Below are positions 43,724 to 56,421 of a stretch of DNA of 64,000 bases, piece by piece. The notes under the pieces were generated by a model that ran no database searches, had not been told where the DNA came from, and was given only the letters and a program-made list of their open reading frames with translations. The position numbers and the translations under genes were made by a program. Source of the stretch: Bacteriovoracaceae bacterium (GTDB lineage: Bacteria > Bdellovibrionota > Bacteriovoracia > Bacteriovoracales > Bacteriovoracaceae); assembly GCA_023701435.1 (NCBI GenBank), contig JAMPXB010000004.1, positions 62,001 to 126,000 of the forward strand, in the 5' to 3' direction. The stretch's first letter is position 1, and every line of letters starts with the position of its first letter.

Positions 43724-44167
43724 CTATCGCAGCACTAACACATTGGCAGGTGCATATTTCAGTTGATGTTGGGCAAAAGAGCTATCGAAGAAATTTTTGA
43801 TTCCATGTCTTCCTCTGGTTGCCACTACAACAAGATCGGCTTTTTGTTCTTGTACATAATCATTAAATGCTGCTTTCTCATTGGCATCAAAAAGGCATTT
43901 AAAAGTAACATTTTTGTGATCCGGAAAAATCTCTTTTTTGACATCCGCAAGCTTGGCCATAATTGATTCTTCAATCTTCGGACGCTCCTCTGGCAAAGGA
44001 TAAGTCAGGACAGAGAATTGCATGCCTCGAGCATAAATGATGGTAGGAATGACATGAACCAGATGAATCTCGGCGTCCTTTTCAATGTTCATCGATTTTA
44101 ATTGCATGAGAGGTCGATGAGTTTCTTCTTCAAGACTTACAGCAACAATGATTTTCTTCGCATTCAT
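43724..44167 (-). CDS. Universal stress protein, single domain
   Basis: A 147-residue UspA-family protein (IIVAVSLEEETHRPLMQL, DLVVVATRGRHGIKNFF, ANVLVLR). The loop after the last beta strand is G-R-H-G but lacks the final G-S/T of the ATP-binding signature, so it may not bind ATP. It is the first gene of the two-gene Usp operon. The 150 bases upstream to the divergent exported-protein gene show no clear FNR-type site. Confidence 0.9.
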   Translation of the reverse strand: MNAKKIIVAVSLEEETHRPLMQLKSMNIEKDAEIHLVHVIPTIIYARGMQFSVLTYPLPEERPKIEESIMAKLADVKKEIFPDHKNVTFKCLFDANEKAAFNDYVQEQKADLVVVATRGRHGIKNFFDSSFAQHQLKYAPANVLVLR

Positions 44168-44797: not shown

Positions 44798-44837
44798 CCA
44801 TTGACAACTCCTCACTTTAAAAGTGATTATCCGTGCC

Positions 44838-45290
44838 ATGAAAAAGACATCCTTATTCCTGGCAATTTTTATCTCTATTCCTAGTTTGTTTGCGGCCACC
44901 TTCGAGGTGATTGGACCTTGCAGTGAACGCCCGCTTCTTTCGGTGGAAGTAAATGCATCATCCTTTGAAACCATTGGTGACCTGACCATTTTTCAATTGA
45001 GTAAAAATAAGGTCCCCTACTTAGGAGACGAGAGAGGAATTAACCAGATCTTCAATTCTCCTCTGGGATTGGACGCACTGGAAGTGATCAGTGACACCCA
45101 AATGCTTGCCTACGGTTGGTGCTATAGTGTGGATGGCCTGGTGAGCATGGAGTATCCCATCGATTACTACACTGAGGATAAGATCAAAAATGTAACTTGG
45201 TTTTATGGTTATTCACGTTTTGATAAAACCCAGTGGGTCTCAATGTGCGAGCCTTCCTATAAAAGAAAATCTGCATTCATTTGTAAGTAG
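44838..45290 (+). CDS. Exported protein, possibly DUF4430-like
   Basis: A 150-residue product with a signal peptide (FLAIFISIPSLFA-ATF). The mature part FEVIGPCSERPLLSVEV ... YGWCYSVDGLVSMEYPID has the general layout of small DUF4430-type beta domains, with the paired cysteines in GPCSER and YGWCYS. A C-terminal pair is at SMCEPSYKRKSAFICK. The ATG at 44838 is preferred to an in-frame GTG at 44823, because the signal peptide then has normal length. The function is unknown. Confidence 0.72.
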   Translation: MKKTSLFLAIFISIPSLFAATFEVIGPCSERPLLSVEVNASSFETIGDLTIFQLSKNKVPYLGDERGINQIFNSPLGLDALEVISDTQMLAYGWCYSVDGLVSMEYPIDYYTEDKIKNVTWFYGYSRFDKTQWVSMCEPSYKRKSAFICK

Positions 45291-45297
45291 TAGCATC

Positions 45298-46545
45298 TTA
45301 TATTAAAAAGACAGGAGCAAAACCACCACCAAAGGTTCTGAAATTGGTGGTCTGTCCTGAATAAAGACGTGAGGTCAGGAGCTGTATCTTTCCATTATAG
45401 GTATAGGCCCGAATATCCATCTTCAGTTCGCTCTGCTCTTCCCCGACCTTAATCGCTCTATAGCCAGGCAGGGCCATCTCTTGGGCCACATAGCAGCCCT
45501 GGTTGATCTCTTCCCAAACCCGATGAGTGATCTTATCACCACGATAAGCAGCCTTACTGCCAAAGCCTGAAGCCGGCTTGAAAAAATAATTTTTCCTATT
45601 GCTCCAAAGGAGCTCTTTATTTAACACTGAGAGGCCTACAGTTTTAGGTATGCCTGAGGCTAGCTGCTCAATCAGGACCGAATCGATCCCGAGTCCGGCC
45701 AAAACTTCCGGATTAGTGAGTGTTTCTAAATTCATTTTATTGGCAAATAAGGCATGATGGTGTGGATTAGGAGTTACCACCACATCCCCTTTTCTATAAG
45801 CACTGAGGAGTTCGGCATTCTTCTCCTCAGTAAAATAAAAATCCGTTAAGCGGTTATAAACGAGATCAATCTTTTTATTTTCAAACCAAAGACCATCATT
45901 CTTATGAAGGACCTCTCGAGGATCAAGGATGAGACAATCAATTCCAAAACTTTTAAACAATTTTAAAAAGAGCTGAAACTCCGGATAAAGGTATTGTTTT
46001 TCCGGATCCTCATCAATAATCGCAATACAATTCAGAGGCAAATCTCCTCTTTGCGATGCCCATTCCGTTAAAAACATTTTAATAAACGTATCTTCCAAAC
46101 TATCCAGATCAGAAGGGAGTTTTACTCCTTCGCAACAGGCGACTTGGGCCCGGGCCAAAATAAGATTAAGAAGAGCTCCTCCCGCATTGGTATTTATCTC
46201 AATGAGCTTTGGCCCTTTGTCGGTTAGATGAAAATCGTACCCCATGAAAACACCTTGGGGGCCATTCTCAATAAGAGCTATTGATGGTGCTTTTTCTAGC
46301 ACAAAATTTTTAAAGGCCGGTGATTTGACCGCGGTCTCAACAGTATGGATCACTACCTCGATTTTGTTCAATTCTTCCTGGGAAAGATAAATGGAGGTGT
46401 TCGAAAATAAATGAGGGCGATCTTCCAAGAGTTTTTCAATATTTATTTCATGCTCAAGATGAGTTTTTAAGATTTTCTTATCAAGAGTCTGACAAAGACA
46501 CTGTTTATTTATTATCTGAGCGCGGGAATTTTTATTACTTAGCAT
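45298..46545 (-). CDS. ATP-grasp-like protein of unknown specificity
   Basis: A 415-residue protein with an ATP-grasp-like layout. KLIEINTNAGGALLNLILA is a substrate/metal segment. The C-terminal part has the lysine-bearing strand YFFKPASGFGSKAAYRG, DIRAYTYNGKIQLLTSRLYSG and the acidic/basic pairs expected for ATP and Mg2+. The order of parts resembles circularly permuted ATP-grasp enzymes that make peptide-like amide bonds (for example glutathionylspermidine synthase-like). The product cannot be named. Divergent from the FNR-like regulator across a 153-base region rich in inverted and direct repeats. Confidence 0.65.
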   Translation of the reverse strand: MLSNKNSRAQIINKQCLCQTLDKKILKTHLEHEINIEKLLEDRPHLFSNTSIYLSQEELNKIEVVIHTVETAVKSPAFKNFVLEKAPSIALIENGPQGVFMGYDFHLTDKGPKLIEINTNAGGALLNLILARAQVACCEGVKLPSDLDSLEDTFIKMFLTEWASQRGDLPLNCIAIIDEDPEKQYLYPEFQLFLKLFKSFGIDCLILDPREVLHKNDGLWFENKKIDLVYNRLTDFYFTEEKNAELLSAYRKGDVVVTPNPHHHALFANKMNLETLTNPEVLAGLGIDSVLIEQLASGIPKTVGLSVLNKELLWSNRKNYFFKPASGFGSKAAYRGDKITHRVWEEINQGCYVAQEMALPGYRAIKVGEEQSELKMDIRAYTYNGKIQLLTSRLYSGQTTNFRTFGGGFAPVFLI

Positions 46546-46624
46546 AAGTTTGAATTGTCGGACTCGTGAGAGTGAATTTCAATATATAAATTACTTAAGG
46601 TTAAATTTAGGTTAAGAGAGCTGG

Positions 46625-46642
46625 TGCGCCAATTTTGGCGCA
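46625..46642. promoter_or_regulatory. 18-bp palindrome between the ATP-grasp and FNR-like genes
   Basis: TGCGCCAA and TTGGCGCA (8-base perfect arms around TT). AGGTTAA occurs twice just upstream, and CTTAAGGT recurs on both sides (about 46593 and 46657). The cluster looks like an operator or regulatory region of the divergent pair. Confidence 0.4.
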
Positions 46643-46698
46643 TTCTAAGAATAACTCTTAAGGTAATTTGTTAGAGGGAAACTAAACAGGAGAATTTT

Positions 46699-47400
46699 CT
46701 GGGTATCGGTTGTGAAAATTGTCATTCTAAAACCAAAGGTTTTTTTTGTGGGCTCGCCCCCGGAGCCATACTGGATTTAAATGCCAATAAAGAGGCCCGT
46801 ACAGTTAAAAAGGGTCAGATCCTTTATGTGGAAGGTAAACCCGTCGACGGTTTGTATTGCATCCAAAGCGGTAAAGTTAAAGTCATCAAAAATATTGATG
46901 GCAGAGATGCCATTGTTCGAATTTCCAGTTCAGGTGACCTCTTAGGGCACTATGGTCTGTTCACCACTAATAAACATTTTTCAACAGTAACAGCACTAGA
47001 AGACGTTCAGTTGTGTTTTCTGGATAAAAAGTTAGTTTCCCAGTTAATGCAAAAGCATCCGGACATATCGAGTTTGTTCATAAAAAAGCTTTGCCATGAA
47101 ATGAGTTCCACTAAAACTAAGCTTTCATCCATTATGAATAAAAATATCCGGGAAAGACTGGCGGAGCTATTGCTGACACTCTCAGAATCATACGGCGAGG
47201 CCAATGAGGACCGGATTAAGCTTGAAATTCGGTTAACTCGTGAGGAAATGGCCTCAATGATTGGAACGGTTAATGAGACCGTCACCCGCTTTATCACGGA
47301 ATTTAAGAGTGACGGTCTCATCGAAGAAGAAGATAAGGTAATCTATATCACTAATCAGGAGAAATTGAGGAAGGTGGCCCGGGTTACACACGCCTCGTAA
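46699..47400 (+). CDS. FNR-type [4Fe-4S] transcriptional regulator, probable CTG start
   Basis: A 233-residue Crp/Fnr regulator. The cysteine set of oxygen-sensing FNR is present: C5, C8 and C17 at the N-terminus (GCENCHSKTKGFFCG), plus C106 in the beta-barrel (VQLCFLD, equal to E. coli C122). The cyclic-nucleotide-like barrel spans about 25-140. The HTH recognition helix GTVNETVTR matches FNR's ETISR pattern, so a TTGAT-type half-site is expected. Nearby in-frame ATG/GTG/TTG codons are absent upstream of 46828; AGGAG at 46688-46692 points to CTG at 46699. An in-frame stop lies at 46672. A GTG start at 46828 would lose all three N-terminal cysteines. Confidence 0.9.
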   Translation: MGIGCENCHSKTKGFFCGLAPGAILDLNANKEARTVKKGQILYVEGKPVDGLYCIQSGKVKVIKNIDGRDAIVRISSSGDLLGHYGLFTTNKHFSTVTALEDVQLCFLDKKLVSQLMQKHPDISSLFIKKLCHEMSSTKTKLSSIMNKNIRERLAELLLTLSESYGEANEDRIKLEIRLTREEMASMIGTVNETVTRFITEFKSDGLIEEEDKVIYITNQEKLRKVARVTHAS

Positions 47401-47402
47401 AT

Positions 47403-48245
47403 TCAGGCCGCTTTAGTACCTGCCTCTTTTATTCTATAAATCACTGCCCCATCGATAAAGTGCTGCTCGTAGTCCGTGGAAAGTCCAAACAGGCTTTCTC
47501 CGGAACCGAGCACTAAAAATCCTCCTGGTGCCAGCAAATCAGTAAGCTTCTTTAGAATTTCCGTTTTCCCCTCAACACTCTGATAAATGAGAACATTCCG
47601 GCAGAGGATGAGATGAAATTTTTCACTAAAAGGAAATGGTTCTTTTAGGTTTAATTTTTTGAATTCAATGTTCTTTATTAATTCAGGTTTGGCGATCCAC
47701 TGATCAGCTCCGCCCTTGATAAAGTGCTTATAGAGTCGTTCCGGGGAAAGCCCGCGATCCACTTCCAGCCGTGAATACCTCGCCTCTTTCGCCTTAGCTA
47801 AGGCCCGCTCCGAAATATCTGTTCCGATGATCGAGAACTGGATTTTTGAATTAAGTCTCTCTTTATACTCATTAAGCAGAATCGAAAGTGATATCGCTTC
47901 CTGACCAGTTGAACTGGCGGCCGACCAGATTCGCAACTGTTGGGTATGAAATTCATCCTCAGAAGCAGCCTTTAAAAAAATCGATTCAATGGCCGCAAAA
48001 ACTTTGGGATCTCTAAAAAATGATGTCTCATTGTTAGTCGCTTGATCCAGCAGCATTTGTTTAAACTGACCACACATGCCTTGCTGGCAATTGGCATACA
48101 ATTCCTGCAAATTTCGGGCCCCGATCAACTTGGATATTTCCTCTAAGCGGTTTTGCAGCTGGAAATAATTATGTTCAGCATAGACGATTCCTAGTTCAGA
48201 CTTAATATAATTGGCAAAAAATTTCAGAATCTCGTTGTCTTGCAT
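47403..48245 (-). CDS. cheR: Chemotaxis methyltransferase CheR
   Basis: A 280-residue SAM-dependent methyltransferase that adds methyl groups to receptor glutamates. The CheR N-terminal helical domain (about 1-80) is followed by NNETSFFRDPKVF, the SAM site IWSAASSTGQEAISLSILL (AASS-G-E pattern), IIGTDISERAL, and ILCRNVLIYQSVEGK. Last gene of the cheA-cheW-mcp-cheB-cheR operon, 6 bases after cheB. Convergent with the FNR-like gene, 2 bases apart. Confidence 0.95.
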   Translation of the reverse strand: MQDNEILKFFANYIKSELGIVYAEHNYFQLQNRLEEISKLIGARNLQELYANCQQGMCGQFKQMLLDQATNNETSFFRDPKVFAAIESIFLKAASEDEFHTQQLRIWSAASSTGQEAISLSILLNEYKERLNSKIQFSIIGTDISERALAKAKEARYSRLEVDRGLSPERLYKHFIKGGADQWIAKPELIKNIEFKKLNLKEPFPFSEKFHLILCRNVLIYQSVEGKTEILKKLTDLLAPGGFLVLGSGESLFGLSTDYEQHFIDGAVIYRIKEAGTKAA

Positions 48246-48251
48246 AAAAAC

Positions 48252-49337
48252 CTAGGAAGAAATCCTTGAACTCGTTAAGCGTTTCGTAGTGGCCACTTTA
48301 TCTTGTAATATTTCGATTATCTCATCCGGTGTGGCGATCCGGTCATAAGCACCCACCGAAAATACCGCCCCAGGCATTCCAAAAACCACACATGATTTTT
48401 CCTCTTGAATAATCATGGTGCCGCCATTTTGTTTAATAACTTCAGCTCCGTCTTTTCCATCTGCACCCATGCCGGTTAAAACAAAACCCAGGCATTGATC
48501 TTTGAAAATCTCGGCGGCAGTAGAAAACAGCGGATCAACTGCTGGTCTGACGGAATTTATTTGGGGACCTTGATCCAAGGTAATTGTCGTTTTTAAGGCC
48601 GTACCCTGCAAACGCAGATGGTAATCTCCTGGAGCGATGTAGATACAATTTTTATCCAGCACTTCTCCATGAATCGCCTCTCGAACAGGGATACCGCTCA
48701 ATTTAGTAAGACGCTCGGCAAAAGCTGCGGTAAAAACTGGCGGCATGTGCTGAGCAATCACAATGGGACATTTAAGCGGTGGGGCCAGTTCAGAAAATAT
48801 CTTCTCCAGCACAGTCGGGCCTCCCGTCGAGGAGCCTATCACAACGATCTTAGGCTTAAAGAGTTCCCAGATGATTGTAGGGTACTGATCATTTCTCTTA
48901 ACGGCAGGCCTTTCAACTTTGGCCGGAGCAACTTCTGGAAAAAGAGCATCAATCTTAGGTCCAATGAGTGCCCTGATTCTTTCAAAAGGTTGAAGGTCTG
49001 AAGCTCCGTTAGGCTTGGCAATAAAATCATTAGCACCGAGGCGCAAGGCCTCCATTGTTACTTCAGCACCGCGCTTAGACGTTGATGAAAAAATGATCAC
49101 CTCGCATTTTAGACCCCGCTTGGCGATCTCCTGCAAAGTTTGAGTTCCGTCCATCTCAGGCATCTCAAGATCCAAAATCAAAAGATCAACCGGAGTCAAA
49201 ACCAGTCTCTCAATCGCCAGTCTTCCGTTAGAAGCAGTCCCGACAACTTCCACTCTAGGGAAGTTGTCGAGGGCCGCTCTGATCTGTGACCTGTAAATAA
49301 CGGAATCATCAACAATGAGAACTTTGATCTTTTGCAT
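48252..49337 (-). CDS. cheB: Chemotaxis response regulator methylesterase CheB
   Basis: A 361-residue protein. The N-terminal receiver domain has VLIVDDSVIYRSQ and the phosphoacceptor Asp in LLILDLEMPEMDG. The C-terminal methylesterase/amidase has the catalytic triad Ser in VIGSSTGGPTVL, His in IAQHMPP, Asp in GMGADGKDGA. It removes receptor methyl groups when phosphorylated by CheA. It starts 3 bases after the MCP gene stop. Confidence 0.96.
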   Translation of the reverse strand: MQKIKVLIVDDSVIYRSQIRAALDNFPRVEVVGTASNGRLAIERLVLTPVDLLILDLEMPEMDGTQTLQEIAKRGLKCEVIIFSSTSKRGAEVTMEALRLGANDFIAKPNGASDLQPFERIRALIGPKIDALFPEVAPAKVERPAVKRNDQYPTIIWELFKPKIVVIGSSTGGPTVLEKIFSELAPPLKCPIVIAQHMPPVFTAAFAERLTKLSGIPVREAIHGEVLDKNCIYIAPGDYHLRLQGTALKTTITLDQGPQINSVRPAVDPLFSTAAEIFKDQCLGFVLTGMGADGKDGAEVIKQNGGTMIIQEEKSCVVFGMPGAVFSVGAYDRIATPDEIIEILQDKVATTKRLTSSRISS

Positions 49338-49340
49338 TTT

Positions 49341-51251
49341 TTATTTCTGTGCTTTCTTAGTTAAGGCCGTTAGCTTCTCAGCAAGGTTTGCCAGCTCTTT
49401 CGAAGCATCCAGCGTCTGATTTGAGCTGATGGTGCTTTCATTGGCCGCTGCTGAGACGACTTTAATCGTGCCCGCAATGCTTTCGACCCCTTTTTGAGAT
49501 TGTACAACCACTCGTGAGATTTCATTGGTAGTAGCTGTTTGCTCTTCTACTGCAGCGGCAATCACACCGGAGATGCCATTTAGTTTTTCAACCGCATCAG
49601 AGATCCCGGCAATGGCGTCAACAGCACTCTTGGTGTCAGTCTGGATGGCACCAATTTTATTGGTGATATCATTGGTCGCCTTCGCTGTTTGTTTGGCGAG
49701 TTCTTTTACTTCATTGGCAACTACGGCAAACCCCTTACCTGCTTCACCAGCACGGGCCGCTTCAATGGTTGCATTCAATGCCAGAAGATTGGTTTGCTGA
49801 GCAATGGAACTAATAACTTTAATGACGTCACCAATTTCCTGGCTGCTAGTGCCTAATTTCGTAATGGTCACATTCGATTCCTGCGCCTTAACGAGGGTCA
49901 TCTTGGCCATTTTAGATGACTCATTGGTAGAGCGGCCAATTTCCTTGATCGAGGCCACCATCTCTTCCATATTGGTTGCAACAGTCTGAACGGCAATGGC
50001 CACTTCCTCTGCCGTGGAGGCAGCACTTTGTGATTCACGGCTGGTCTTATTGGCAGTGTTGGACATTTCTGAAGCAGTCGCTGTTAGTTCAGCTGAGGCG
50101 CTTGATAGAGCATTCGCTGTTTCCTGAATAGCAGTAACAATTTGCTGTTCAGTGACGTCAGTGGCGATAATAACGACTTTGAACACTCTGCCAGTTTCAT
50201 CAACCACCGGTGAATAAACAGCTTGAAACCAAACTTCTTTTCCTGAACGGGTCATTCTTTTGAAGACACCACTCTTTTTCTGACCGTTTTTAAGATCTGC
50301 CCAGAACTGAGAGTATTCAGGAGAATTAACATAAGAAGATTCGCAGAAAATTCTGTGATGTTTGCCCTTAACTTCATCAGCAGAGTATTCCATCAATTTC
50401 TGGAAAATATTGTTCCCGGTTAAGATATTCCCGCTAGGGTCACATTCAATAAAGATAAATGAAGTATCAATGGCATGAATCACACCCAGCATATTCTGGC
50501 GTTCAATTTCCGTTTCGGTAATATCATAGCGCACCCCTAGGTACTTCTTGGGTTTGCCATTATCTCCCATAATCGGCGCAATCACAGCATCAACATAATA
50601 GGGAGTGCCGTCTTTGGCCCTATTCTTCACTACCCCACGGAATAAATTTCCGCGACCGATCGTCGCCCACATCTCTTTAAATACTTCCTTAGGCATATCC
50701 GGGTGTCTGGTGGTGTTATGAGGCTTACCCAAAAGTTCGTCTCGACCGTATTTAGAAACCTGGATAAATTTCTCATTAATGGAGAGGATATTACCTTTAA
50801 GATCTGATTCCGAAACAATACTGGTAATATTCATAATGTCTGTACGAACTTTCAATTCAGACTTAAGTTCTGAAATGTCAGTCGCCAGCATAATCACTTT
50901 ATATGGCCTTTTATTTTCATCAAACAGCGGATTAAAGTAAGCAATGATCGACAATAACTTCCCATTTTTACCGATGCAATTATATTCGTTAGTGACAAAT
51001 TCACCTTTATTTAGTTTGTCCCATATTTGTTTAAATTCAAAACTTTGGGCATATTCGTCTTCACAAAGATGCTTATGATGCTTACCCGTAATATCAGACA
51101 GCTCAAGGCCCAGAATTTTAAGAAAATTATCATTGGCAGTGATAACAGTTCCATCAAGATTGAACTCAATAATGGACTGAGAGCGTTCAATGGCCTTAAC
51201 CTTCGCCTTCTGTTCATCAATCATCATTTCCGTTACTTGTAATGCGCTCAT
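49341..51251 (-). CDS. Cytoplasmic methyl-accepting chemotaxis protein with three PAS domains
   Basis: A 636-residue chemoreceptor with no membrane segment or signal peptide. Three PAS repeats occupy about 20-375, each with the same [15 protein letters not shown] / [16 protein letters not shown] / [15 protein letters not shown] element. The MCP signalling domain follows (about 390-636) with the conserved hairpin tip [35 protein letters not shown]. The layout is like BdlA/Aer2-type sensors; PAS domains could bind haem, FAD or other cofactors. No C-terminal NWETF-type tether. Encoded within the che operon. Confidence 0.93.
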
Positions 51252-51268
51252 TATTACTCCTTTAATAA

Positions 51269-51730
51269 TTAATTTAATGATTCCATTGCAGGTGATAATT
51301 CTTTTGAAAGCTGATCCAGATCTATGACACTAAGTAGGACTCCATCCATCTTAAAAATACCTTTTATATATCGTCTAATATTCAGAGGGATGGTTTCTGG
51401 TACGGCTTCAAAACGATTTCCATCTACCTCCACCACATCGCCAATGGAGTCGACGATGACAGAAACCAGGTTTCCATCGATTTTACAAACCACTGACATT
51501 TGATCTGATAGTTCTGTTGTTGGCCTGCCAAAAAGTTCCCTCAGTCCCAAAGCTGTTGCAATTTGTCCGCGAAGATTTATTAATCCCCTTACAAAATTAG
51601 GTGCGAGTGGAACCGGTACGACGGAAGGATTTCTAAAGACTTCCTGCACTTTCATGACTTCTATTCCGAACAAGTCTGAACCGATATAAAATGTAGTCAG
51701 CTGTTCTATTGTATTTTGTTTGGTATTCAT
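51269..51730 (-). CDS. cheW: Chemotaxis coupling protein CheW
   Basis: A 153-residue CheW that bridges receptors and CheA. The start [18 protein letters not shown], the [22 protein letters not shown] loop and [13 protein letters not shown] are typical. Its ATG overlaps the cheA stop by 4 bases (ATGA), so CheA and CheW are translated in fixed ratio. The MCP gene starts 17 bases downstream. Confidence 0.95.
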
Positions 51731-54648
51731 GCAACATTCCTGGTCTTAGTCGTTAATTCCACGACTGCTGCTAATAACACTGATGGTTTTAGTTTTTCCA
51801 AATAGATATCAAAACCTGACTTCACGCCCTCGGTTTGATACTGCTTATCCGCCCGGGAGCTGATCGCCAGCATCGGGATCTTAGAGAAAACAGGATGCTT
51901 ACGAACGTTGGTTGCCAGTTGGAAGCCGTTCATTCTTGGCATTTCAATATCTGAAACGATGAGATCAAAGGACTGATTATGCTCATTTAAAATATCTAAG
52001 GCTTCTTTCCCGTCCTCAGCAGTCACGACTTCATAACCTCTTTCTTCAAAAAGATGCTTCATCGATTTACGGAAAAAGACCGTATCCTCAACGAGAAGAA
52101 TGCGCAGACCATTATCAGTTTTAACAGAAGCTATTTTACCCTCTGGAAACTCTCTATTAATAAGTTCAAAAGGATTAATCACCACAATCAGTTCTTCACT
52201 GGTATTTAGATTACCAAAGATACCGGGATGAGGGATAAGACTTGTATCCATCTCCAATGTCGTTGATAAAGTATCGAGAATTTCATCTACCTCAAGCCCA
52301 AAAAGTTGTCCTGACCTTTGAATGACCACTACAGGGAATGTCTCACTCTCTACTTTCCGAGAAGCATAACCTAAGTGTTCACTAGCAGAGACTAGTGGCA
52401 GAATAATATCGCGGTAGCGAATGACCCTTTGAGATCCGGAATATTCGATATCTTTCCGCTTGAACTCTTCCAATCTATTGACATAGGCCAGAGCGAGAGC
52501 GTGCTTGGCCGGAGAATTTAATCTGACCAGCAAGAAGTCCTGCAGATCGGCGGTCTTTCTCGCTTTTTCTGATTGAATATCGAGCTCGGCATTTTGAGCA
52601 TTTTCCTGCCCCAACTGAGCAACTTTGGAGATCCCAACGACATCAAAAATAAGCGCGACGGAGCCGTCGCCCAAGATAGTTGCACCGGAATAAACTTTGA
52701 GGGATTTAAGCAGTCGATTAAGAGGTTTTACGACAATGTCGGCAGTGTCATGAATTTCATCAATGATGACTCCGAATGAGCACTGTTCTGCGTTCAGGAC
52801 GGCAATGGTGATGATTGAATTATCATCAATGATCTTATTATTAGTTTCAATTCCCAAAACCTTATTAAGATCCACCAAGGGAAGAATATTTCCTCTTAAA
52901 CGGTAAACCAAGGCCCCATGCAAAGTTTCAATTCTATTTTCTGTATTTGACTGATCAATCCGCAACAGTCCTTCAAGTTTGACTTGGGGAATGGCAAAAG
53001 TGCCTTCACCGCATTTCACAATCAGAGCAGGAACAATCGCCAGAGTCAGAGGAATTTTAATCTTTATGGATGTTCCAATTCCCGCAGCTCCGTTAATTTC
53101 TACCGTTCCACCAATGCGCTCAATATTAGTCCGGACCACATCCATCCCCACACCACGACCTGATAGATTAGTCACTGCTGCGGCGGTAGAAAAGCCAGGT
53201 GCAAAAATTAAATGATAAATTTCTTTTTCAGTTAATTTATTGGCCTGCTCCTGAGTAATCAGTCCTTTTTCCATCGCTTTTCTTAGAAGCACATCAGTGT
53301 GGAGACCTTTCCCGTCATCACTCACTTCAATGACGACCTGTCCGCCCTCATGATAGGCCTTGATATTAATAGTACCCGTTTCTGATTTACCGTGCTTACG
53401 TCTTACTTCAGGAGCTTCAATTCCATGATCGCAGGAATTTCGAACGATGTGAGTAAGAGGATCTTTAATGGCCTCAAGAAGCGATTTATCAAGTTCTGTA
53501 TCAGCTCCATGAAAATTAAGGGTGATACTCTTTTTTAATTCTTGTGAGAGATCGCGAACCACGCGGTTAAATTTGTTTAAAACATTACCTATCGGTTGCA
53601 TGCGCGTTTTCATCATCTCGCCCTGAATTTCACTGGTGACAGCATTCAGGCGTTTACTCATGCTTAAAAATTCCATGTCCTCAGACTTATTCGAGTACTG
53701 CAGAACCTGGTTTCGCACCAATACCATCTCCCCCATCAGGGCCATCAGGTTATCGAGTAAAGAAACAGAAACTCTGATGGAAGCCGTTCCTTCATTTTCC
53801 GATTCTTTCTCTTTTGGAGTGACGACAGAAACAGTCTCCACTTCCGGCTCCTTTTTCTGAGTTGGTCTTGATTCAAGTTTTTCGGCAGATAAATTAAGCG
53901 CTCTGATAATGGCAGAAACGATCGAGGCAAAATCCTTGTCGGGTGCTTTTTGCTTTATTCTTTGTATGAGAGATTCAATCACGCCAATGCTTTTAAACAA
54001 GCAATTAATCAGGGCAGTCGAGGGTAAATGACCACCTGCCCGGATTTTTTCCAGGCTTGACTCCATGGCGTGAGCGAGATCCCCCACGAGGGAAAAAGAA
54101 AAAAGATACGCCCCCCCTTTAAGCGAGTGGACGTCCCGGTAAAGAGCATCAACTGTATCTGAAGTGTAGGATCCATTTTCCAGTTGCTGGAGACCAACTG
54201 AGATCCTTTCGATAACTTCTTCACATTCACAAACAAATTCATCCAACGCCAAGGCCGGCACTTCGGAGACCTTGGTCACTTGCACCTGCGCAGGACTCAC
54301 CTGAGTAGATTGCTCCATCTTGTAATTAAATGAAATTTTTTGCCCATCCAGGATGGATTTGACCCCATCAATTCCTCTGAGAAATAAACTGATATAGGGC
54401 TTGGGAATCGAGTCCCCATCCTTAAAACTCATGAGAATATTTTCCAGCTCATGAGTATGGGCCTGAAGCTCCATCAGCTCCATCATCCCCGCTGCCCCTT
54501 TGAGATTGTGAAATCCACGGAAGATGGCATCAAAGGACGGACGAAACTCGGCCCCACTGTCCAGTGCCAGCAAACTTTTCTCAGCAATCTCAAGAAGCTC
54601 TAAAGCTTCCGCTTTAAATTCTTCTATTTCCTGATCTGAAAACGACAT
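51727..54648 (-). CDS. cheA: Hybrid chemotaxis histidine kinase CheA with two Hpt domains and a receiver
   Basis: A 973-residue CheA. Order: Hpt 1 with H47 (FHNLKGAAGMM), a second Hpt with H174 (DVHSLKGGAYLF), linker, dimerisation helices, HATPase (NSCDHGIEAPEVRR, DDGKGL, GRGVGMDVV), a CheW-like domain (ALIVKCGEGTFAIPQ), a second CheW-like domain (about 670-810) and a C-terminal receiver with Asp in LIVSDIEMPRMNG. No separate CheY is encoded in the operon, so the receiver may act as phosphate sink or output. The ATG at 54648 follows AAGGGGA. First gene of the operon. Confidence 0.95.
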   Translation of the reverse strand: MSFSDQEIEEFKAEALELLEIAEKSLLALDSGAEFRPSFDAIFRGFHNLKGAAGMMELMELQAHTHELENILMSFKDGDSIPKPYISLFLRGIDGVKSILDGQKISFNYKMEQSTQVSPAQVQVTKVSEVPALALDEFVCECEEVIERISVGLQQLENGSYTSDTVDALYRDVHSLKGGAYLFSFSLVGDLAHAMESSLEKIRAGGHLPSTALINCLFKSIGVIESLIQRIKQKAPDKDFASIVSAIIRALNLSAEKLESRPTQKKEPEVETVSVVTPKEKESENEGTASIRVSVSLLDNLMALMGEMVLVRNQVLQYSNKSEDMEFLSMSKRLNAVTSEIQGEMMKTRMQPIGNVLNKFNRVVRDLSQELKKSITLNFHGADTELDKSLLEAIKDPLTHIVRNSCDHGIEAPEVRRKHGKSETGTINIKAYHEGGQVVIEVSDDGKGLHTDVLLRKAMEKGLITQEQANKLTEKEIYHLIFAPGFSTAAAVTNLSGRGVGMDVVRTNIERIGGTVEINGAAGIGTSIKIKIPLTLAIVPALIVKCGEGTFAIPQVKLEGLLRIDQSNTENRIETLHGALVYRLRGNILPLVDLNKVLGIETNNKIIDDNSIITIAVLNAEQCSFGVIIDEIHDTADIVVKPLNRLLKSLKVYSGATILGDGSVALIFDVVGISKVAQLGQENAQNAELDIQSEKARKTADLQDFLLVRLNSPAKHALALAYVNRLEEFKRKDIEYSGSQRVIRYRDIILPLVSASEHLGYASRKVESETFPVVVIQRSGQLFGLEVDEILDTLSTTLEMDTSLIPHPGIFGNLNTSEELIVVINPFELINREFPEGKIASVKTDNGLRILLVEDTVFFRKSMKHLFEERGYEVVTAEDGKEALDILNEHNQSFDLIVSDIEMPRMNGFQLATNVRKHPVFSKIPMLAISSRADKQYQTEGVKSGFDIYLEKLKPSVLLAAVVELTTKTRNVA

Positions 54649-54692
54649 AATTCCCCTTGGAGAAACCAAAGAAATCTTTTCGATTTCTTCTT

Positions 54693-54707
54693 AAGTTAAT
54701 TTAACTT
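54693..54707. promoter_or_regulatory. 15-bp palindrome upstream of cheA
   Basis: AAGTTAA and TTAACTT are perfect arms around T. It lies 45 bases before the cheA start; CTTAAGGT, also found near the FNR-like gene, recurs about 50 bases further upstream. Function unknown. Confidence 0.3.
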
Positions 54708-54779
54708 CTGGGGGGAATTATTCTATTTGTTAATTGTCAGGAACTTTTTACAAGAATTGTCTTAAGGTAAAATTAAATA

Positions 54780-54793
54780 CTGATATTTATCAG
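54780..54793. promoter_or_regulatory. Candidate FNR-type box upstream of the che operon
   Basis: CTGAT-ATTT-ATCAG contains a perfect TGAT-N4-ATCA core with an extra matching C/G pair. It lies about 138 bases before cheA and 20 bases after the stop of the haem chemoreceptor gene on the same strand. Confidence 0.45.
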
Positions 54794-54813
54794 CTCCAAA
54801 ACTCAGCACATTA

Positions 54814-56421
54814 CTAGATCTTAAATTTTTTGATCAATTCATTTAGTTGATGAGCGAGAAGACTGAAATCTGAACTTACTTCACCTATCCGTTGGGCAGC
54901 GATAGTCGACTTATTAGAAAGCTCCATGATCGAATTAATATTACTTTCAACTTCCCTCGTAGCTTTACTCTGCTCCATCGTACTATTCGCAATATCCATC
55001 ATGACATCTTTGAGCTTGGCCATTTCCATTGCTACGTTTTTGAAGGCTTCATAGGAAGTATTCACTTCATTTCTTCCCTCTTCGGCCAGAACTTTGGTCT
55101 CTCTGATAACCGCTACTGTTTCCTGCATCAACACTTTCAGTTGATTGGTACATTCTTCAATTTCCAGATTAGAAACTTTTGTTTGCTGGGCAAGCTCGCC
55201 TATCTCATTGGCCACTACCGCAAATCCTAGTCCCGCGGAGCTGGCCCTGGAAGCTTCCACGGAGGCATTGAAAGATAATAAGCGGGTCTTCATGGTGATA
55301 TCATCCACCACTTTGACAGTCTGAGCGATGCGAAGAGTTTCTTTTTCCAATTGTTCAGCAATAGATGAAACTTGCTCAATATGTTTGAAGAGATCATTAA
55401 TTTTTTCTCTTGCCGAGAAGGCCTTATTGGCCCCATCGGCTACTTCGGCTTCCACATTACTTGTAAAGCTTTGTGACTGAAGAGAACTGTTAGCCACATA
55501 CTGGGAAGAGTCGCTCATTTTACGTAAAGCAAGGCCAACCTGATTTGTTTCTTCCTTTTGCTGCAAGATATCTGAAATCGTGAGAGTTGTGATATTGGTG
55601 ATTTCATCTGATCCATGAACAATTTTTTCAGTAGAAGCTTTCACTTGGGTAAGACTAAGACGGATTGTTTTCAACATTTCATCAAAAGCATGGGCCATTT
55701 TAGAAATTTCATCCCGTGAACCGTTTCGACTAAGGATTTTGGTCAAATCCATCTTCTGGGCGATGTATTCAATTTCCTGCTGAATATTTTTTATTCTTTT
55801 TACGGCAATTAGTCTTAGTGCTACCAAAACAATAATGAGAGCGGTAATAAACAACCCTACGACAATTTTCCCAACGTATATGCTGCTTTCTCTGACTTCC
55901 CTATCAAGGCGATTCAGTGAATAAGTAATGCGAGCGGCACCCAATACCGTCCCTTCAGGGACTTCATGGCATTCCATGCAATTTGTTCCCCGATAATTGG
56001 AACTGGCCCTTACCGGCAGTAGTACCGTCAAGGTTCTTTTGTCCTTAAAGCTTTGTATCAGCTGGATTTCTTCACCTAAAAGACCTCTCTTGTCTAAAGC
56101 ATCCTGAGCGCTTTCATACTTAAAGCCCTCTCCATACATCTCTTTAACTTTGTCACCACGGACGATTCGCACATCTTCGATGTCTTTATTCTCCAGGAGC
56201 TTGCTCCGTAAAATTTCACGATTCTCCATGGTCCCGGTAATCATCATGGCATTGACACTGTCAAAATACTGGGAAGCCGTTTGCATGGCCTGCTCTTCAA
56301 TGAATCTTTCAACAAATTTCTGCTGATTGGTGAAGCTGATGAAAATCACCACCCCTGTCATGAGACTGAAAATAACCAACAGGGGAATTAAGATTTTTAA
56401 TTGAATATTCAAACTCCCCAA
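54814..56421 (-). CDS. Membrane chemoreceptor with periplasmic c-type haem motif
   Basis: A receptor of about 535 residues. Two membrane helices (about 9-30 and 182-204) enclose a periplasmic sensor domain of about 150 residues. That domain carries C148-M-E-C151-H152, a haem-c attachment site, in RGTNCMECHEVPEG. A HAMP segment (about 205-255) and an MCP signalling domain follow, with the tip [32 protein letters not shown]. Similar haem-c chemoreceptors are known in Geobacter and probably sense redox state. The start is uncertain: a TTG at 56421 is used, but GGGGAG sits directly after it and 7 bases before an ATT. Confidence 0.9.
   Translation of the reverse strand: MGSLNIQLKILIPLLVIFSLMTGVVIFISFTNQQKFVERFIEEQAMQTASQYFDSVNAMMITGTMENREILRSKLLENKDIEDVRIVRGDKVKEMYGEGFKYESAQDALDKRGLLGEEIQLIQSFKDKRTLTVLLPVRASSNYRGTNCMECHEVPEGTVLGAARITYSLNRLDREVRESSIYVGKIVVGLFITALIIVLVALRLIAVKRIKNIQQEIEYIAQKMDLTKILSRNGSRDEISKMAHAFDEMLKTIRLSLTQVKASTEKIVHGSDEITNITTLTISDILQQKEETNQVGLALRKMSDSSQYVANSSLQSQSFTSNVEAEVADGANKAFSAREKINDLFKHIEQVSSIAEQLEKETLRIAQTVKVVDDITMKTRLLSFNASVEASRASSAGLGFAVVANEIGELAQQTKVSNLEIEECTNQLKVLMQETVAVIRETKVLAEEGRNEVNTSYEAFKNVAMEMAKLKDVMMDIANSTMEQSKATREVESNINSIMELSNKSTIAAQRIGEVSSDFSLLAHQLNELIKKFKI

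Follow-up and report, generated by a model that had tools for sequence, protein, structure and literature searches.

A probable CTG start codon on an FNR-type regulator gene of a Bacteriovoracaceae bacterium

In Escherichia coli FNR, the cluster ligands are C20, C23, C29, and C122 (PMC5398030; PMC4214427). Regulator genes with start codons other than ATG have been described. The fitness of gut E. coli is altered by non-ATG starts on sugar regulators (PMC11445065), and in Staphylococcus aureus the ccpN gene combines an AUA start with a strong Shine-Dalgarno sequence and yields about 10-30% of the output of AUG (PMC13009471). In E. coli, complexes formed on CUG have reduced stability, and initiation from them is poor (PMC11497404). 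When the evolution of start codons was reconstructed, 2 of 61,358 ancestral AUG starts had switched to CUG, or approximately 3e-5 per start (PMC5622118). An earlier sequence-only reading of the present locus called a CTG start on a regulator unusual. Bacterial CUG starts are very rare, and they lie outside the scope of routine gene callers.

This study analyzed a 64,000-nucleotide stretch of the genome of an uncultured Bacteriovoracaceae bacterium (GCA_023701435.1, contig JAMPXB010000004.1, positions 62,001 to 126,000), hereafter the window. A gene at 46699-47400 of the forward strand encodes a Crp/Fnr-family regulator of the FNR type for which we propose the start codon CTG (46699-46701). The kind of regulator is ordinary; its start codon is the very unusual part.

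Identity of the regulator and its family

The 233-residue product contains PF00027 at residues 34-120 (1.2e-20) and PF13545 at residues 152-225 (3.2e-18), both above the cut-off, and so shows the cNMP-type barrel followed by a Crp-type helix-turn-helix that defines the Crp/Fnr superfamily. Its nearest solved or curated sequence relatives are likewise Crp/Fnr regulators. The AlphaFold model has a pLDDT of 88.8, and a Foldseek search matched it to CRP and holo-FNR structures along its full length. The four cysteines that mark an FNR are present: an N-terminal CxxC and a third cysteine (C5, C8, and C17, with codons at 46711, 46720, and 46747), which form the cluster loop C5-x2-C8-x8-C17 (46711-46749), and the barrel cysteine C106 (47014-47016), which aligns with C122 of E. 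coli FNR. The same alignment places E193, T194, and R197 at the recognition-helix motif E-T-x-x-R. The curated NCBIfam models scored below their cut-offs (PRK11161, 86 bits vs 228; FnrL, 81 vs 300), and because these scores are far too low for the name Fnr, we use the term FNR-type. The genome contains 26 exact matches to the FNR site TTGATNNNNATCAA, compared with 2 for the reversed control, and 13 of the 15 inspected sites overlap listed open reading frames. The Pfam domains, the four cysteines, and the predicted fold uphold the FNR-type identity proposed in the sequence-only reading and suggest that the gene encodes a real regulator with a [4Fe-4S] loop, a cNMP-type barrel, a dimerization helix, and a helix-turn-helix, most likely an oxygen sensor.

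We compiled 108 related proteins, drawing on GTDB contigs and on the genomes of the GTDB family to which the source organism belongs. The motif C-x2-C-x7-9-C was found near the N-terminus in 95 of them, and among these 95, C106 is kept in all and C54 in 92. A canonical start precedes the first cysteine in 94 of the 95 motif-bearing members, and in 85 of these it is an ATG; the window copy is the sole exception. This pattern, together with the universal retention of C106, exceeds what chance would give. The loss of the three cysteines from orthologues had been named as an outcome that would speak against the sequence-only reading; the orthologues retain them.

The source genome contains three family members, and the window copy is 42-45% identical to its two paralogues (L002/L063 and L003/L064). 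It is the most divergent of the three FNR-type paralogues, and this third copy evolves fast relative to the other two. A universal stress protein (Usp) gene lies near the window copy (43724-44167, reverse strand), and homologues of it lie near the paralogues in this and other genomes; E. coli fnr likewise adjoins uspE.

The reading frame and its syntenic orthologue

The frame of the regulator (46675-47400, forward strand) is limited upstream by an in-frame stop, TAG 46672-46674, and remains open through to TAA 47398-47400. The codons that follow the TAG are AGG GAA ACT AAA CAG GAG AAT TTT CTG GGT ATC GGT TGT GAA AAT TGT. The sequence-only reading correctly placed the iron-sulfur cysteines upstream of the first ordinary start, GTG 46828-46830, in the same open frame. 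Its statement that no ATG, GTG, or TTG precedes 46747 was true but understated, as none occurs in frame between the TAG and GTG 46828. That GTG encodes residue 44, inside the barrel, and is the likely pick of a routine gene caller; the mechanical list of open reading frames indeed uses it, giving a product of 190 rather than 233 residues, as had been anticipated. Because routine callers skip CUG, the putative oxygen sensor would be annotated as a truncated protein that lacks the iron-sulfur loop.

The Shine-Dalgarno sequence AGGAG (46688-46692) ends 6 nt before CTG 46699, a gap that falls within the range of 5-9 nt set for a CTG-initiated gene and suits this start as had been supposed. A 5-nt Shine-Dalgarno match located 3-12 nt upstream was found for 3.9% of random positions in the window. 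RNA structure around CTG 46699 gave no unusual signal (z 0.64), and a sigma-70 promoter scan of 46500-47500 found no match on the forward strand. Three other accounts of the 5' end were rejected. Initiation at GTG 46828 would remove the first barrel strands, 32-36 and 41-43, together with all loop cysteines, and the Shine-Dalgarno match there is only 3 nt. Readthrough of TAG 46672 from the in-frame GTG 46624 disagrees with the orthologue L021, which starts at the CTG position and has an in-frame TGA abutting its ATG. The third, a frameshift within the stretch of T nucleotides at 46739-46746, is contradicted by the flanking cysteines, which share one frame and match those of relatives.

L021 (G003:C19), from the same genus, pairs with the window copy on the tree (SH-aLRT 100), and both branches are long. 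The two regulators are 43-44% identical, and their loci share neighbors on both sides: peroxiredoxin (84%), an AhpF-like protein (82%), Usp (77%), and a conserved protein of unknown function (47%), and then a methyl-accepting chemotaxis protein (MCP, 73%), a ParB-like protein (72%), and MgtC (75%). The regulator (44%) is far more diverged than most of these neighbors (70-84%). The interval from Usp to the regulator holds two genes, 45298-46545 (reverse strand) and 44823-45290 (forward strand), for which no counterpart was found in the G003 syntenic stretch; neither matched a Pfam or NCBIfam model. Directly downstream of the regulator in the window lie CheR, CheB, and further chemotaxis-type genes (47403-54800); at the orthologous place in G003, the regulator is followed directly by the MCP gene corresponding to 54814-56421.

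The sequence-only reading had suggested aligning orthologues to see whether the CTG codon is ATG elsewhere, and L021 carries ATG exactly there. The alignment of ATG GGC ACC AGC TGC (L021) with CTG GGT ATC GGT TGT (window) is gapless and sets ATG opposite CTG. The Shine-Dalgarno spacing is similar, with TAAGGAG 5 nt before the ATG in L021 and AGGAG 6 nt before the CTG in the window. The identities at the three codon positions of the two genes (0.56/0.74/0.35) indicate protein-level constraint. We compared 15 pairs of homologous genes from the window and the syntenic stretch; 14 have a usable canonical start and the regulator is the exception. Usp belongs to the 14, as its ATG 44167 lies two codons within the edge of the BLAST match. 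Three observations support initiation at CTG, in agreement with the sequence-only reading: no ordinary start precedes the cysteines, the orthologue has its ATG at this codon, and a Shine-Dalgarno sequence lies at a similar distance in both genes.

The promoter region contains an 18-bp inverted repeat, TGCGCCAATTTTGGCGCA (46625-46642), with the arms TGCGCCAA and TTGGCGCA around a central TT, and this sequence is unique in the genome. Its core, GCCAAWTTTGGC, lies 71 nt before the CTG in the window and is conserved in L021, 75 nt before the ATG; it was absent from the 300-nt upstream regions of the other 106 family members. As a sequence, TGCGCCAATTTTGGCGCA matches neither the FNR box nor the CRP box. 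The palindrome is most likely the operator of the regulator gene and would be bound by the gene's own product or by another regulator.

An ATG-to-CTG change and its alternatives

We consider it probable that this gene encodes an FNR-type regulator in which an ancestral ATG became CTG by a single base change and that CUG is used as the start, at low output. This reading infers three things: the C is genuinely present in the organism, ribosomes initiate at CUG, and little product results. In the proposed mechanism, the one-base change would have occurred in this lineage, the AGGAG 6 nt upstream would position ribosomes, and the initiator tRNA would read CUG as fMet with low efficiency. Such weak initiation may yield small amounts of the full-length sensor. 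By analogy with E. coli FNR, the sensor would gain its cluster without oxygen, dimerize, and bind DNA, and oxygen would cause loss of the cluster. The change probably lowers the dose of the regulator. A tentative extension, which we regard as rather unlikely, is that the dose-limiting CUG has been selected: the third FNR paralogue would be kept at a very low level, with an oxygen threshold unlike that of its two ATG-started paralogues and with the lineage-specific operator GCCAAWTTTGGC.

The inefficiency of CUG, the rarity of the switch, and the long branches of the orthologue pair count against the favored reading. The rarity makes a base error in the draft assembly a serious competitor. According to this account, the true codon at 46699 is ATG, the assembled C reflects a minority variant or a mistake in the consensus, and the gene starts as an ordinary FNR gene does. 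It is favored by the single-base difference from the ATG of L021, by the draft state of the genome (53 contigs), and by the prior for a true switch, which at approximately 3e-5 per start is little above plausible per-base error rates (PMC5622118). Nevertheless, the gene is otherwise clean, with 233 open codons and no frameshift, the other 14 homologous pairs all have usable canonical starts, and site 46699 is outside any long homopolymer. We searched the DNA of 129 genomes of the order for a near strain in which base 46699 could be verified, and only distant matches were found. On balance, we judge such an error unlikely, though to be taken seriously.

A real change that newly silenced the gene, or left it with a truncated product from GTG 46828, appears improbable. 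Both orthologues have long branches, which make relaxed constraint on the window copy and L021 possible; the two paralogues, whose starts are ordinary, could take over its role, and this orthologue pair is unrepresented in most genomes of the genus. However, the intact frame, the conserved motifs, the Shine-Dalgarno sequence, and the promoter palindrome are all retained, and GTG 46828 lacks a good Shine-Dalgarno sequence, cuts the barrel, and drops C5, C8, and C17. A start at some other near-cognate codon ahead of C5, such as ATC 46705 (or AGG 46675), is very improbable: AUC, too, can serve E. coli as a weak start and ATC 46705 lies two codons before C5, but it is 12 nt from AGGAG compared with 6 nt for CTG, and L021 carries ACC at that codon, with its ATG opposite the CTG.

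If the ATG-to-CTG reading is true, the two loci would form a clean pair, with ATG in L021, CTG here, and similar Shine-Dalgarno spacing, for dose tuning of a redox regulator by a weak start. Annotated FNR-like proteins "without cysteines" would be worth checking for missed starts.

Comparison with known systems

The window regulator shares with E. coli FNR (b1334) the CxxC, the third N-terminal cysteine, the barrel cysteine (C122 = C106), and E-T-x-x-R. The two are only 24% identical, however; the cysteine spacing is C-x2-C-x5-C in E. coli and C-x2-C-x8-C here, the N-terminus of the window regulator is 15 residues shorter, and its start is CTG rather than ATG. The Crp/Fnr fold of Aliivibrio fischeri FNR (PDB 8QTO, 5CVR) is matched along the whole chain (8QTO, 234 columns, TM 0.84). 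The best Foldseek matches of the model are actinobacterial CRP/GlxR proteins (PDB 4BYY, 3I54). Those proteins bind cAMP, whereas their arginine-bearing site, GPRTS in 3D0S, corresponds to NKHFS in the window regulator, and an alignment with mycobacterial CRP revealed no evident cAMP-site arginine. Within Bdellovibrionota, the FNR-like family has the same four cysteines, C54 (92 of 95), length, and domain order as the window copy, but the other motif-bearing members have ATG, GTG, or TTG before the first cysteine and the window copy does not.

With respect to the start codon, the closest parallels are ccpN of S. aureus and Bacillus subtilis, in which a weak start (AUA) on a regulator is likewise combined with a strong Shine-Dalgarno sequence (PMC13009471), and E. 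coli lacI, also a regulator with a non-ATG start (PMC11445065). The window gene differs from both in that its start, predicted from sequence, is CTG rather than AUA or GTG, and in that this CTG is not kept in L021.
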